Below, one piece after another: positions 6,028-57,348 of a stretch of 64,000 nt of DNA (within the stretch, counting starts at the first letter, position 1; each line of letters opens with the position of its first letter). The stretch comes from Haloplanus natans DSM 17983 (GTDB lineage Archaea > Halobacteriota > Halobacteria > Halobacteriales > Haloferacaceae). The notes under the pieces were generated by a model. The model was not told where the DNA came from. It did not search any database and saw only the letters and a program-made list of their open reading frames with translations. The translations under genes were made by a program, and so were the position numbers. Location: contig NZ_KE386573.1 of NCBI RefSeq assembly GCF_000427685.1, forward strand, positions 1-64,000. The letters run 5' to 3'.

Positions 6028-7481
6028 TCAAATACCGTGTGTCTCGTCGTCGGCCCGCTGGAGTTCGACACAAAAAATCGTCCCTTTCGGCTCGTTGTCC
6101 TCGATCCAGACCCGGCCGCCGTACGTCTCGACGAGGTTGTCGACGAGGTAGAGGCCGAGGCCGCTGCCGGGGCTCTCCAGCCCCTTTTTCCCGCGACCGA
6201 ACACCTCGCGCTTGCGCGAGTCCGGAATGCCGGGGCCGTTGTCGGCGATGCGGGCGACGACGGTGTCTTCGTCTACCGTGATCTCGATGTGGATACGGAT
6301 CTCGGCCTCGTCGTTGTGAAAGACGGCGTTGTCGAGGAGGTTGCCGAACACCGACGAGAGAATCGAGGTGGCCCACACGTCGACGACGGGTAGGTCGGCG
6401 TCGCCGGTGATCTCGATGCTTTCGGATCGGTAGTCGAAGTTCGATCGGACGCGCTCGATCTCCCCCCGGAGCACGTCGTCGAGCGCGACGGATTCGAGTT
6501 CGGGATCGGTCGGCCCGAGGATGCCCGCGAGGTCGCCGACCGCCTCGGTGAGCTCCTTGGTGTGTGTCACGGCGGTCATGACGCGTTCGAAGGCGTCGCT
6601 GTCCTCGTCGGGGATACGGTCGGCGAGTTCGCCGCCCCAGCCGAGCGCGACAGTCATGTCGTTGCGGATGTCGTGGCGAACGATCTGGTTGAGCAAGGCG
6701 AGGCGGTCGCGTTCGGTTTCGAGTGCCTCCTCGGCTCGCTTGCGGTCGGTCACGTCCTGCTGGAAGCCGACGTAGTGTGAGGGTTCGCCCCCCTCGTCGT
6801 AGATGGGGGCGATGGTCACCTGGTTCCAGAACTCCTCGCCGTTGCGGCGGTAGTTGCGCACTTCCACGGTCACTGGCTCCCAGCTGTCGACGGCGCGGCG
6901 CATCCGCGCCACCGTCTCGGGGTCGGTGTTTTCCCCCTGCAGGAACCGGCAGTTCCGGCCGACGACTTCCTCGATCGGATACCCCGTGATGCGTTCGAAG
7001 GCGGCGTTGGCGTAGACGACGGGATTGTCCGGCAGCGACGGGTCGGAGATGGTGATTCCGATGGGCGCCTCGTCCATCGCCCGCTCCTTGAGACGGAGGT
7101 CCGCGGCCGTCTCGCTACGGGCGGCCCGACCGACGTGAGTTACCACCGCGTAGCGCTCATCCTCGTGGCCGGCGGCGGCGTACCGCACGATCAACGCCTC
7201 GCCGTCCGCGTCGGCGTGGTAGGGTACTCCCCGCTCGCCTCGCTCTCGCCCTCGAACAGCGCCTCGAGTCGTCCGGCGAGGGTTACGGCTTGCCCGTTTT
7301 GCGACCGCCGGAGCGTGTCGAGATACGGGCGGTCGTCGTCGGTCGGGACGAGCGGATGGTCGTGATCGGCGACGAACGCGCGCCACGCGGCGTTCGACTC
7401 GACGATCCGTCCCCGGCCATCGATCACCGCGATGCGGGCCGGGAGCGTATCGAGGACCGTCTCGGTCAGCCCCGATGACAT
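6028..7481 (-). pseudogene. Frameshifted LOV/PAS sensor histidine kinase
   Basis: Two adjacent frames together make one kinase. The first (start 7481, MSSGLTETV) holds a PAS domain up to GESEASGEY. The second continues with HADADGEALIV, a LOV-type PAS with the flavin-binding motif GRNCRFLQG, a coiled linker, the H-box RHDIRND, N-box NLLDNAVFHND, and G-boxes DNGPGIP and GSGLGLYLVD. One missing C in the run at 7222-7224 (CCC where CCCC would restore EYPYHADADGE) breaks the frame. The LOV cysteine suggests blue-light or redox sensing. No receiver gene is adjacent. It could be a sequencing error or a true lesion. Confidence 0.85.
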
Positions 7482-7610
7482 ACTGGTGCCGTCACGACCG
7501 ATCCCTGGCAGGCCACCGTAATAGACCTGTTCGCTCGCGGGCGTCACACACGGTGGCCGACCGCCGCGAATGCCCGGGCTTTTGTCGTGCCGTCCGTTGG
7601 AGTCACACGC

Positions 7611-52236: not shown

Positions 52237-52452
52237 TTCGGCGGAGGTGTTCGGGTTGTGGGCCGTGCCAGTACGGCCCCCGGCCGGGATAGTGGGCTTC
52301 ATCTACCTCCGCGCGGAGTGCGTATCCGTACCCCGGACTCGGCATCACAACCGACGAGCGCCGGTACAATCAACGTTTTGCCGGCTGTCGGCTTCATCCC
52401 ACGACTGAACTCGTGGGCTTTCGCCTCGAAACTCCGTAACCGCCGGAGCGGC

Positions 52453-52740: not shown

Positions 52741-52856
52741 ATCAAAATTAAGTTGACGCAGTGACAAGAGCTACACATGGCGTAGACAGTATATCTGAGC
52801 TCTAGAACGTCTGTTTTCGCGCCGCACGTGATTTGCTATCACGCTGATACCAGAAA

Positions 52857-52867
52857 ACATTTAATAC
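52857..52867 (+). promoter_or_regulatory. Probable promoter of the S-layer glycoprotein gene
   Basis: The AT-rich acatttaatac is a good TATA candidate. It would start transcription near 52889 and leave a leader of roughly 90 nt before the ATG at 52981. A long leader is known for S-layer glycoprotein mRNAs of haloarchaea, unlike most leaderless genes. Confidence 0.5.
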
Positions 52868-52980
52868 AGGATGGGTATGTTTCGACTACCCCTACCGGTG
52901 GCTGGCGCGACGCCGGACCACAAATTCGACACGAAAGAGGGTCGACCTCGGGACTGTCACTGCAGACAACAACGAAAAAC

Positions 52981-54192
52981 ATGACAGACTATAATAAGAA
53001 AGTCCGCGCAGTCATCCTGGCCGCGCTCATGGTGTTCAGCGTCTTCGCTGGCACCGTGGCGCTGTCTGGGAGTGCTGCGGCAGCAGCCGGTACTCCAGTG
53101 CTCCAAAACGAGAGCCTGAGTCCGACTAGTGTTGCACAAACCACTGTGACACACGATGTATCGTTCGATGTGGATAATTACTCGGCAACTGGCGACAGTA
53201 CGACCGAAATCAGTATCAGTGCCGGTTCATTTGCTGATGCCGATCTCGAAGTCACAGACGTAGACAACACTACTACCCTTTCCGGGAAAGCTGTTTCAAC
53301 TGCGTCTGGATCTTCGATTGACATCACAACTAATGGGAAACAAAATGTTTCCATTAGCGGGACCGTCACTATCGACTGGAGTGGAACCACTTCGGGAGAT
53401 AAAACTGTCAATATCAACGCTTACGACGGTTCAGCAACCGCCACTGGGACTGTTGACGCCAACACACCTGTCACCGTCACCGTCTCCTCCAGCACCACCC
53501 GGTCCAACCCGGGCGCTGGTGACGCGGACAGTCAGGTCTACAACGGATCGACCGTCTTCCAGGGTGAGGAAGACATCACGTTCGTCGATTCCAGCGGGAA
53601 TCAGCTCGACTCCCTGACCGGCACCAGCGGTGATGCCGAGGGGCAGACGCTCACGATCCCGATCGACGACGACCAGGCGACCGGCCAGTACGACGAGAAC
53701 GGTCCCGACCAGTTCCAGGACAGCGTCTACGGCGTGACGGTCCTGCAGCCCCAGATCGAGGACCTCGAAATCCTCAACACGAACGGCGAGGACATCGCTG
53801 GCGGCTCCGTCCGCGAGGGCGAGGGTGGCGCTAGCGGTCCCAACACCGGAACCGGTTCCGGTGACCTCGACGTCGTGGCCGACTACAACTACGAGGAGTC
53901 CGAGAACATCGAACTGACCGTCGAGGACGACACCGGCCTCGACGTGACCGGCGACGCGCTCACCCAGAACGGTGGCCCCGCGGTCAAGGGCGCCAACACC
54001 GACGGTGAGGACGTCACCTGGAACCTCGACCTGACCGACCTCGGGACGGGGACCTACACGGTCACCGTCGCTGGGAGCGACGACCTCGACTTCGGGTCGG
54101 CGACCGAGTCGACGACAATCACCGTCACCGGTGACGACGACATCACCAACGACCTCGACATGGAAACGGCCACGCGCGGGGTGAGGACGTGA
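52981..54192 (+). CDS. csg: S-layer glycoprotein, N-terminal part (frame broken)
   Basis: The 403-residue N-terminal part has the classic haloarchaeal surface-glycoprotein signal peptide (MTDYNKKVRAVILAALMVFS, cleaved after GSAAAAA). Then comes a Thr/Ser/Asp-rich ectodomain of Ig-like beta domains with many N-glycosylation sequons (for example NES, NYS, NGS). The frame ends early at TGA 54190-54192 just after DLDMETATRG. The downstream frame continues the same protein (GEDVTFTLRGSD). Removing two bases (tg) from cgcggggtgagg near 54174-54186, or adding one, rejoins them. The first part has a lower-GC stretch before about 53480. Confidence 0.88.
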   Translation: MTDYNKKVRAVILAALMVFSVFAGTVALSGSAAAAAGTPVLQNESLSPTSVAQTTVTHDVSFDVDNYSATGDSTTEISISAGSFADADLEVTDVDNTTTLSGKAVSTASGSSIDITTNGKQNVSISGTVTIDWSGTTSGDKTVNINAYDGSATATGTVDANTPVTVTVSSSTTRSNPGAGDADSQVYNGSTVFQGEEDITFVDSSGNQLDSLTGTSGDAEGQTLTIPIDDDQATGQYDENGPDQFQDSVYGVTVLQPQIEDLEILNTNGEDIAGGSVREGEGGASGPNTGTGSGDLDVVADYNYEESENIELTVEDDTGLDVTGDALTQNGGPAVKGANTDGEDVTWNLDLTDLGTGTYTVTVAGSDDLDFGSATESTTITVTGDDDITNDLDMETATRGVRT

Positions 54193-55949
54193 CCTTCACG
54201 CTCCGTGGGTCGGACGCTGGTGACAACCACTACGTGGTCATCGACGCCGAAGACTTCCGTGACACCAACAGCAACCTCGACTCGGCGCGCATCTTCCGCC
54301 AGGTCGGTGACACGAACGATGTCGGCCTGATCAACGCTTCCAACAGCGTGCTCACCCGGACGGAGATCAGCAACGGTGACACCGTCGGCACCGTGGAGTA
54401 CGCCTACGCCAACGTCACCATCGACGACGACACGGGCGTCGGTGTCGGTCAGATCGAGACGCAGTACCTCGATACGACCGACGTCGATGTCGACCTCCAC
54501 GCGTCGGGCACGACTCCGACGCAGATCGTCAACGGGCAGGAGCCCGAAGACGACCCGACGCTCACCGTCGAAGAAGGTGAGGTCTCCCTCGAGACTCCGG
54601 ACAACACCTACGTGGTCGGCAGTGAAGTGACCATCAATGGTTCCGCGAGTCAGGGCATCGACGATGTCTCGCTCTACATCCGGCGCCAGGGCGACTACCA
54701 GCTTCTGGACGTCGACGGTACCGAAACCGGTAACGACGGTGCCAGCAGCGGTCCGGTCGACGGGTCGATCAGCGTCGACGCTGACGACACGTTCGAAGTC
54801 GAAGACGTCATCCTCTCGGAGGGTGACGGCGGAGGTAACGAGATCCTCTCGCTGCCCGGCAGCTACCGCATCGGCGTGATCGACACGGCCGACGCGGGTG
54901 GTACGGGTAACCCCGACTCGTCGCTCAACGTCTCGGCGTTCAACACGGGGACGAGCAGTCAGAAGTCCCTCCGTGTGGTCGACACCGAACTGAGCGCAAC
55001 CGTCCAGACGGTCGGTGGCCAGGTGGCCATCGAGGACGACGAAGTGAACGTCACCGGGACGGCTCTGGGTAACCAGAACGTCGACGTGATCTTCGTCGGC
55101 GAGCGTGGGAACGCGAACTACGAGTCCATCTCGGTGGACGACGACAACACGTTCGAGGAAGACGAACTCAGCGTCTCCGGCGGTCAGGGCCTCCAAGAGG
55201 GTCAGGTCAGCGTGCACGTCCTGATCCCGGGCCGTGACGGCGACTACGGTGACGGTAACTTCCCGACCGGTGTCAACGATCTCCAAGACTTCGCCGAGAA
55301 CGAACTCGACGGTGCGGGCCTGACGGGTGACCAGATCCGTGCGCGCATCCTCGATCAGACGACCGAGGAAGTCGCGAGCGACGACCGGATGGTGACCCAG
55401 CAGTTCCGCTACGCTGACGCGCAGACGACGATCCAGAACGTCTACCCCGAAGGCGCCGAGGCCTCGGGTGTCAACCCGATCGCCGTCGACGACACGATGG
55501 TCGTCGAGGGCAGTACGAACCTCGTGCCGGACGACAACGCGATCACCGTGGAGCTGCTGACCCAGGAGGGTGACTCCGTCGCCCTGACCACTACGGACAG
55601 TTGGTCGATGGACGGAACCTACCAGGTCTCGCTGGCACTCGAGGACGTGCAGACGGGCACGTACACGCTCGAGTCCGACGACAGCTACAACACGGACACC
55701 GAGACCGTGGAGATCGTCCAGAACCGCCAGACTGCGACGCCGGAACCGACGGCGACGCCGGAGCCGACTCCGACGGAGACGCCGGAGCCGACGCCGGAGC
55801 CGACGCCGGAACCGACGCCGGAGCCGACGCCGACGGCAACGGCAACGGCCACCGACACGACTAGCGGTGGCGGTCCCGGCTTCGGTGCCATCGTTGCAGT
55901 CATCGCGCTCATCGCGGCTGCGCTGCTGGCCGCCCGGCGCGACAACTAA
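54189..55949 (+). CDS. csg: S-layer glycoprotein, C-terminal part with PGF-CTERM
   Basis: This 586-codon frame continues the S-layer protein. It has Ig-like domains (DNTYVVGSEVTINGSASQGI), sequons (NGS, NVS, NVT), a Thr/Pro/Glu mucin-like stretch of PEPT repeats for O-glycosylation, and a PGF-CTERM tail: GGGPGFGAIVAVIALIAAAL then LAARRDN, for archaeosortase processing and lipid anchoring. It has no signal peptide of its own, so separate translation from the GTG at 54189 would not yield an exported protein. The intact protein would be near 990 residues, comparable with csg family members. Confidence 0.88.
   Translation: MTFTLRGSDAGDNHYVVIDAEDFRDTNSNLDSARIFRQVGDTNDVGLINASNSVLTRTEISNGDTVGTVEYAYANVTIDDDTGVGVGQIETQYLDTTDVDVDLHASGTTPTQIVNGQEPEDDPTLTVEEGEVSLETPDNTYVVGSEVTINGSASQGIDDVSLYIRRQGDYQLLDVDGTETGNDGASSGPVDGSISVDADDTFEVEDVILSEGDGGGNEILSLPGSYRIGVIDTADAGGTGNPDSSLNVSAFNTGTSSQKSLRVVDTELSATVQTVGGQVAIEDDEVNVTGTALGNQNVDVIFVGERGNANYESISVDDDNTFEEDELSVSGGQGLQEGQVSVHVLIPGRDGDYGDGNFPTGVNDLQDFAENELDGAGLTGDQIRARILDQTTEEVASDDRMVTQQFRYADAQTTIQNVYPEGAEASGVNPIAVDDTMVVEGSTNLVPDDNAITVELLTQEGDSVALTTTDSWSMDGTYQVSLALEDVQTGTYTLESDDSYNTDTETVEIVQNRQTATPEPTATPEPTPTETPEPTPEPTPEPTPEPTPTATATATDTTSGGGPGFGAIVAVIALIAAALLAARRDN
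55737..55850 (+). repeat. 12-bp tandem repeat coding PEPT in the S-layer gene
   Basis: Repeats of the unit acgccggagccg, with small variants, encode TPEPTPEP-type residues in the mucin-like, O-glycosylated stalk next to the membrane anchor. Copy number at such repeats can vary by slippage. Confidence 0.8.
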
Positions 55950-55961
55950 GATAACCACGAC

Positions 55962-55998
55962 TGACCGCCGAAAGCGGTCACCCGGTGCGGATTCTTTT
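55962..55998 (+). terminator. Transcription terminator of the S-layer gene
   Basis: A 7-bp perfect stem tgaccgc/gcggtca with loop cgaaa lies 12 bp after the stop codon. The T-rich tract ttctttta follows. This fits termination of a very highly expressed transcript. Confidence 0.65.
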
Positions 55999-56447: not shown

Positions 56448-56514
56448 GCCGACGGGTCGTCGTAACTGGGTATCGGCCGTCGTTGTCCCGTGGAACTGAT
56501 TACAACGCGTGTCA
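56448..56514 (-). repeat. Palindromic element copy 10 (short, degenerate)
   Basis: On the minus strand it begins TGACACGCGTTGTAATCAGT. It ends with cagttacgacgacccgtcgg, matching the far arm cagttacgataatccgt. The interior is shortened. The first TGA is the stop codon of the lipoprotein gene ending at 56512. Confidence 0.6.
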
Positions 56515-57348
56515 CGCGGTCCAGATGACCTTCACGTCGCCGTTCGAGAGCGACGCCTCCCACCAGCAGGTGAGGTCGCTCGCCTGCGTCCCCGTGGGGA
56601 CGGCGTAGACGAGGTCACCGCGCCGAATCGTCCGTTCGTCGAGTTCGGTTCCTTCGTACGGATCGTCGCTCACGGCTTGGAACTGTGGACGGCGCTCGCC
56701 GTTGACTTCCAGAACGAACGTCGACGCTGCTGGCGTGTCCTGTGGCTCCTGCAGACGGTTTCGGACCTCGAGGCGCATGACTGCCCACTTCTCACCGTCG
56801 GGCGCGGCGGTCGACGTCCCGTTCGTCGCGGTCGATGCTGCCGTTTCGAACGATCCGCCGAGGAGGCTGAAACGGAGTCCAGTCGGGACGTTGTACGAGT
56901 CGCCGAAGCCGAGCGTCCTCGGCGTGACCTGGGTCGACCACTGCTCGTCGAACGCCACGATACGAAAACGGATCGGGTCGAGATACCGGGGCACGAACCG
57001 GGCGCTTTGCCACTCCCTCGTCTCGCCGGCGGGCACCGATACCGAAAGCTCGCCGGCAGTCCGCCACTCCGCGTCGCCGATTTTGATTCGAATCGGCGAC
57101 GTGAACGTCCCGTCGGCCGACCCGACGTTTCGAACGGTGACGGTGAACGACTCGGGAACGTTCAGCTGGACGGAGTCGGGCGCCTGCACTCCGACGAACT
57201 CGAACGCCGCCGAACCACGCCCGCCGTTCGTGCTCGTCGACGGAGTGGGCGTCGGCGTGGCGGTTGGATCGGTCTCCGACCCGTCGTTGCCCGCGCAGCC
57301 ACCGACCACGGTGGCTCCGAGCGTCCCGAGGAAGGCGCGGCGTTGCAT
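56512..57348 (-). CDS. Tat-exported lipoprotein with CARDB-like domain
   Basis: The 278-residue protein has a twin-Arg-like signal and lipobox (MQRRAFLGTLGATVVGGC), then a Thr/Pro/Ser linker and a beta-sandwich (VQAPDSVQLNVPESFTVTVRNVGSADGTF) of the CARDB/adhesion type. A C-terminal beta domain follows (WAVMRLEVRNRLQEPQDTPA). It is probably a surface-anchored protein; no enzymatic motif is seen. Its stop codon is supplied by palindromic element copy 10. Confidence 0.82.
   Translation of the reverse strand: MQRRAFLGTLGATVVGGCAGNDGSETDPTATPTPTPSTSTNGGRGSAAFEFVGVQAPDSVQLNVPESFTVTVRNVGSADGTFTSPIRIKIGDAEWRTAGELSVSVPAGETREWQSARFVPRYLDPIRFRIVAFDEQWSTQVTPRTLGFGDSYNVPTGLRFSLLGGSFETAASTATNGTSTAAPDGEKWAVMRLEVRNRLQEPQDTPAASTFVLEVNGERRPQFQAVSDDPYEGTELDERTIRRGDLVYAVPTGTQASDLTCWWEASLSNGDVKVIWTA

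Follow-up and report, generated by a model that had tools for sequence, protein, structure and literature searches.

An out-of-frame S-layer glycoprotein gene in Haloplanus natans and its intact twin share a near-identical core but differ in their N-terminal domains

Introduction

Among the described systems closest to the genes reported here is csg, the S-layer glycoprotein gene of Haloferax volcanii. The available excerpts of the structural work on its product (PMC8640222) describe domain D1 as surrounding a central pore and D1 together with D2 as forming a dome; they present D1 as divergent among haloarchaea, and additional N- or C-terminal Ig-like domains as possible in the S-layer proteins of other haloarchaea. 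The S-layer protein of Haloquadratum walsbyi HBSQ001 carries an N-terminal extension of ~150 aa, interpreted in the excerpted text of that study as virus evasion (PMC3119063). In Halorubrum lacusprofundi, one S-layer protein is described as the receptor of HRTV-DL1, with escape mutations in its N-terminal parts (partial text of PMC10544981), and between two strains of this species the S-layer gene is given as the point of lowest identity (54%) on main replicons that are mostly 99-100% identical (partial text of PMC6011602). Extracts of further reports describe recombination inside Haloferax S-layer clades (PMC5867893) and mutually replacing islands in Halorubrum (PMC11078007). Already known are S-layer N-termini that vary between strains and genomes with two S-layer genes. 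In the open-access literature, we found no description of archaeal S-layer paralogues combining a homogenised core with unrelated N-terminal domains in one genome; subscription journals lay mostly outside the scope of this search, making it weak evidence of absence.

Results

We analysed a window of 64,000 nucleotides from Haloplanus natans DSM 17983 (NZ_KE386573.1, positions 1 to 64,000), located on a 3.27-Mb contig of an assembly of 3.80 Mb in 8 contigs. Below, this genome is designated G000 and its relatives G001 and onwards. An S-layer glycoprotein gene, csg copy A, occupies 52981-55949 of the window on the + strand. Its first frame runs from the ATG at 52981 through ...ATRGVRT to a TGA at 54190-54192, and a second frame, two bases on, reads RGEDVTFTLRG and continues to a stop at 55949, ending in a PGF-CTERM segment (55872-55949). 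The first-pass annotation had reported an S-layer gene split in this way, with one frame stopping at 54192 and the next resuming at GEDVTFTLRG, and this frame break is confirmed in the sequence as given. That annotation allowed for either two extra bases or one missing base; alignment with a second csg gene of the genome, copy B, rules out the latter and reveals GGGG at 54178-54181 where copy B has GG (GCGC-GGGG-TGAG versus GCGC-GG-TGAG), i.e. two extra G.

Taken together, the two frames make up a complete csg, the frame break being its only defect. The first frame opens with a haloarchaeal signal peptide (52981-53082; TIGR04207, 43.6 bits for a cut-off of 24.6), 91% identical to that of copy B, followed by a variable N-terminal domain (53083-53540) and the csg core (53541-55949), the latter nearly identical to that of copy B. 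The profile of HVO_2072-family S-layer glycoproteins (TIGR04216, cut-off 400) scores 582 bits on the second frame alone and 153 bits, below the cut-off, on the first, and the PGF-CTERM anchor (PF18204, TIGR04126) is present only in the second frame. Single-sequence folding of the first 400 residues gave a mean pLDDT of 37, and we claim no fold for the N-terminal domain.

Copy A also retains a BRE/TATA-like box (52851-52867), which lines up by eye with a box that precedes most other csg genes, and a 5' leader (52888-52980) with hairpins conserved among the csg leaders of the genus; downstream, a hairpin with a T-run (55962-55998) is common to copy B and most csg genes of the genus. Promoter-like boxes precede both copies. 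In the second leader hairpin, 5 of the 8 pairs show two-sided changes among 17 distinct leaders, and the 12 two-sided-change cells were equalled in none of 500 shuffles. The sequence spanning this hairpin (L010) matched no Rfam family, and the csg leader is a candidate structured S-layer mRNA leader.

Copy B lies at G000:C7:563144-566089 on the minus strand, 0.51 Mb from copy A and in inverted orientation. It is intact, reading in a single open frame of 982 residues from signal to anchor, whereas the frame of copy A is interrupted at the GGGG run. A second csg had been proposed as the mark of a pseudogene, and copy B provides it; since copy B can make an S-layer protein, the initial concern that such a protein is normally essential falls away. 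The bodies of the two genes are 98-100% identical in DNA across most of 2 kb, and their core proteins are 98% identical. Their flanks are unrelated, their N-terminal domains are 24% identical, and they also differ in a short patch (55256-55313) and in the linker ahead of the C-terminus. Over 53651-55255, five substitutions plus the GG separate them, and the break falls inside a 647-nt tract (53844-54490) in which A and B are identical apart from the extra GG. All 25 other full-length csg genes aligned at this point are in frame (copy B and 24 genes of ten relatives; incomplete genes at the contig ends of G005 and G011 and a degenerate fragment of G007 are excluded), so that copy A is disrupted relative to every full-length relative and has an intact paralogue in the same genome. 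Because the tract is otherwise identical and copy A has no second defect, the break is likely young, or an error. With only four G in A and two in B, the site does not amount to a simple-repeat tract for phase variation. Near copy B, we also observed an integrase-like ORF, named by eye (L009 13442-14500), and, ~5 kb away, a CRISPR array (L009 15050-16001) whose 30-nt unit is repeated at least 14 times.

We consider it probable that copy A is a broken member of a two-gene csg family in which B is intact, the cores are kept alike by recombination, and the N-terminal domains are unlike; within this family, copy A most plausibly represents a young null allele. Two surplus G in the core common to both genes throw copy A out of frame, and copy B can supply the S-layer. 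As sequenced, copy A would yield no anchored S-layer protein, because its first product (403 aa) lacks the PGF-CTERM and its second frame lacks a signal peptide, and it would presumably be silent in the cell. The three possibilities raised by the first-pass annotation (error, inactivated paralogue, or recoding) thus narrow towards the paralogue.

The possibility of a sequencing or assembly error appears unlikely. Both copies would then be intact and the extra GG artefactual, arising for example when two near-identical 2-kb repeats were resolved. The break does sit in a G run within a long repeat, in a gene free of other defects, and another break in a G/C run lies at 7224 of the window. There, a gene for a PAS-domain histidine kinase (6046-7541, minus strand) is out of frame, being one base short in the run compared to G006 and G001 by alignment, with G004 in agreement by protein search; this run-length difference shows that breaks, or errors, occur near copy A. 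However, two extra bases on a run of two are unusual as a homopolymer error, no N is found in 204 kb of G000, and frame breaks are no commoner there than in two control genomes. Comparing coding-like ORFs of relatives to these 204 kb, of which 149 kb were covered, yielded seven frame-switch candidates, versus eight in 142 kb of G001 and three in 37 kb of G004, the controls being run in reverse. Four of the seven were aligned (others near 28.2, 119.3, and 185.7 kb): one lies in a gene, at 7224, and three lie outside genes or at gene ends. The G000 assembly is not unusually rich in frame breaks.

The combination of near-identical cores and unlike N-terminal domains extends well beyond this pair. 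Matches to csg were found in all 12 genomes of the genus, eight of which have at least two full-length copies among those compared. With the core defined as residues 240-900 of copy B and the N-domain as residues 34-180, core identity reaches 98-100% within five same-genome pairs (G000A/B, G001a/b, G006a/c, G007a/b, and G008a/b), whose N-domains are only 24-41% identical; in G003, G004, and G009, the closest pairs have 84-91% core identity. Five of the eight multi-copy genomes are thus mosaic (core ≥98%, divergent N-domains). DNA identity profiles of the five pairs have sharp edges and pass from unrelated flanks through a like signal-peptide stretch, an unrelated N-domain, and a core of ~2.3 kb (mostly 93-100%) to unrelated flanks again; the signal-peptide stretch is alike in all five, the leader in some only. 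A degenerate csg piece in G007, with an internal deletion and without the N-terminal part, was also seen (L071 6538-7209, G007:C1:2101552-2102208).

Phylogenies of the two regions told different stories. In the core tree, same-genome copies cluster, with 12 changes for 11 genomes (minimum 10) and none of 200 shuffles as low. In the N-domain tree, in which most inner branches are weak and the row of G001c is mostly empty, same-genome copies do not cluster (20 changes, 161 of 200 shuffles as low). Constraining same-genome N-domains to group was rejected for each of the five pairs (AU p 0.0133, 0.0326, 0.00006, 0.003, and 0.00015), the values for G000 (0.0133) and G001 (0.0326) being modest. Some N-domains instead find kin in other species, at 73% identity with 58% for the cores (G001b-G008b), 79% with 64% (G007c-G010a), and 60% with 59% (G002a-G009c). 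One csg site, recognised by its flanking DNA, is common to six genomes, and there the N-domains are 17-34% and the cores 56-77% identical. From its residue 16 on, the H. volcanii csg chain (PDB 7PTP/7PTR) aligns to copy B over residues 181-982; since the match begins only at residue 181, the variable domain corresponds to an addition before D1. The overall pattern fits homogenisation of the core by recombination combined with exchange of the added outer domain. The few pairs compared from outside the genus did not show such near-identical cores: core identity was 72% in G118, without an N-domain match, and 49% in both G072 and G093. Of 60 family genomes and 79 class genomes, only 11 in each set passed the thresholds used, and these counts include G000 itself and the same-genus genomes.

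The surroundings of copy A vary between genomes. The stretch that contains it (~51.5-58.6 kb) is for the most part absent from G009 and reduced in length in G001 and G006. At the site common to six genomes, G000 (C7:991849-1000689) has no csg, and the flanks are 372 bp apart, versus ~6.5 kb in G001. Upstream of copy A, a repeat of ~190 bp (52242-52434) recurs with 97% identity at G000:C7:2052955-2053147 and, in weaker form, many times across the genus; it resembles a small mobile element. Downstream, a lipoprotein-like gene (56512-57348, minus strand) has a weak DUF4352 match, below the cut-off; in G001, a relative of this gene adjoins the csg of the shared site, and the gene may travel with csg. 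A scan of viral contigs for the break junction, with and without the extra bases, returned nothing.

Two readings would give the break itself a function. The broader one, which we regard as decidedly unlikely, is a face-exchange system across Haloplanus, in which conversion would keep the lattice core uniform, N-domains would be swapped among copies and species, and here a silent face would be held behind a movable or erasable break for virus escape. The narrower one, more improbable still, is that copy A is a stored alternative face, and that recombination with B moves the break to the other N-domain, one face being displayed at a time, either by conversion of the lesion or by a crossover upstream of it that would invert 0.51 Mb. 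This reading draws on geometry: the copies share one region and differ in another, they are inverted, and the N-domain is separated from the lesion by ~600 bp of near identity. A precedent for S-layer genes, one active and one silent, that are swapped by inversion exists in Lactobacillus acidophilus, according to excerpts of PMC7858073. However, this would be a single case, as the frame is open at the break point in all 24 csg genes of relatives, and promoter-like boxes stand on both copies. Near-identical pairs are also mixed in orientation, inverted in G000, G006, and G008 and direct in G001 and G007; the direct pairs disfavour inversion as a general mechanism, a role which conversion could fill. 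Finally, programmed or tolerated frameshifting, for which the two frames jointly forming an otherwise faultless csg might speak, deserves hardly any credence, because CGC GGG GTG AGG (within 54172-54192) has no X XXY YYZ slippery heptamer, a +1 slip on GGGG runs into the TGA, the tract occurs in no relative, and no frameshift is needed in copy B or in the 24 other genes.

Discussion

By itself, the frameshift is an ordinary broken paralogue, of minor interest alone. Its intact twin, however, exposes a genus-wide design, with a common lattice core and interchangeable outer domains present in one archaeal genome. If copy A is indeed the broken member of a recombining two-gene family, the cores would be kept nearly identical by exchange between copies, through gene conversion or through duplication with exchange of ends, while the added N-terminal domains differ completely. 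We infer from the sequence comparisons that gene conversion is the process at work, yet the similarity of the cores would also follow from a recent duplication whose ends were replaced, with no need for repeated conversion.

Virus pressure on the N-terminal S-layer region is plausible. The added domain of Haloplanus would lie on the outer face of the S-layer, its exchange is probably virus-driven, and virus pressure may likewise drive its diversity. A shared body with differing outermost domains may help cells vary their surface. If so, two questions become directly testable: whether viruses recognise the S-layer through the face formed by its N-terminal domain, and whether archaeal cells keep alternative faces in store and exchange them.

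The Haloplanus genes resemble several known systems without coinciding with any of them. With H. volcanii csg (HVO_2072 family), they share the signal peptide, Ig-like core, and PGF-CTERM, and differ in the added variable N-terminal domain, the several copies per genome, and the broken frame of copy A. Going by the partial text of each of the following reports, the conserved S-layer body of H. walsbyi HBSQ001 is similarly preceded by an N-terminal extension of unrelated sequence, but its conserved part is 55% identical between strains, compared to a core 98% identical within one Haloplanus genome (PMC3119063). H. lacusprofundi likewise has two S-layer genes in one genome, although at 41% identity this pair is not core-homogenised, unlike that of Haloplanus (PMC10544981). 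The slpA/slpB pair of L. acidophilus also places two S-layer genes in one genome, one active and the other silent, and these can be exchanged by inversion (PMC7858073); the pair is bacterial and unrelated in sequence, and silence in Haloplanus would stem from a frame break.
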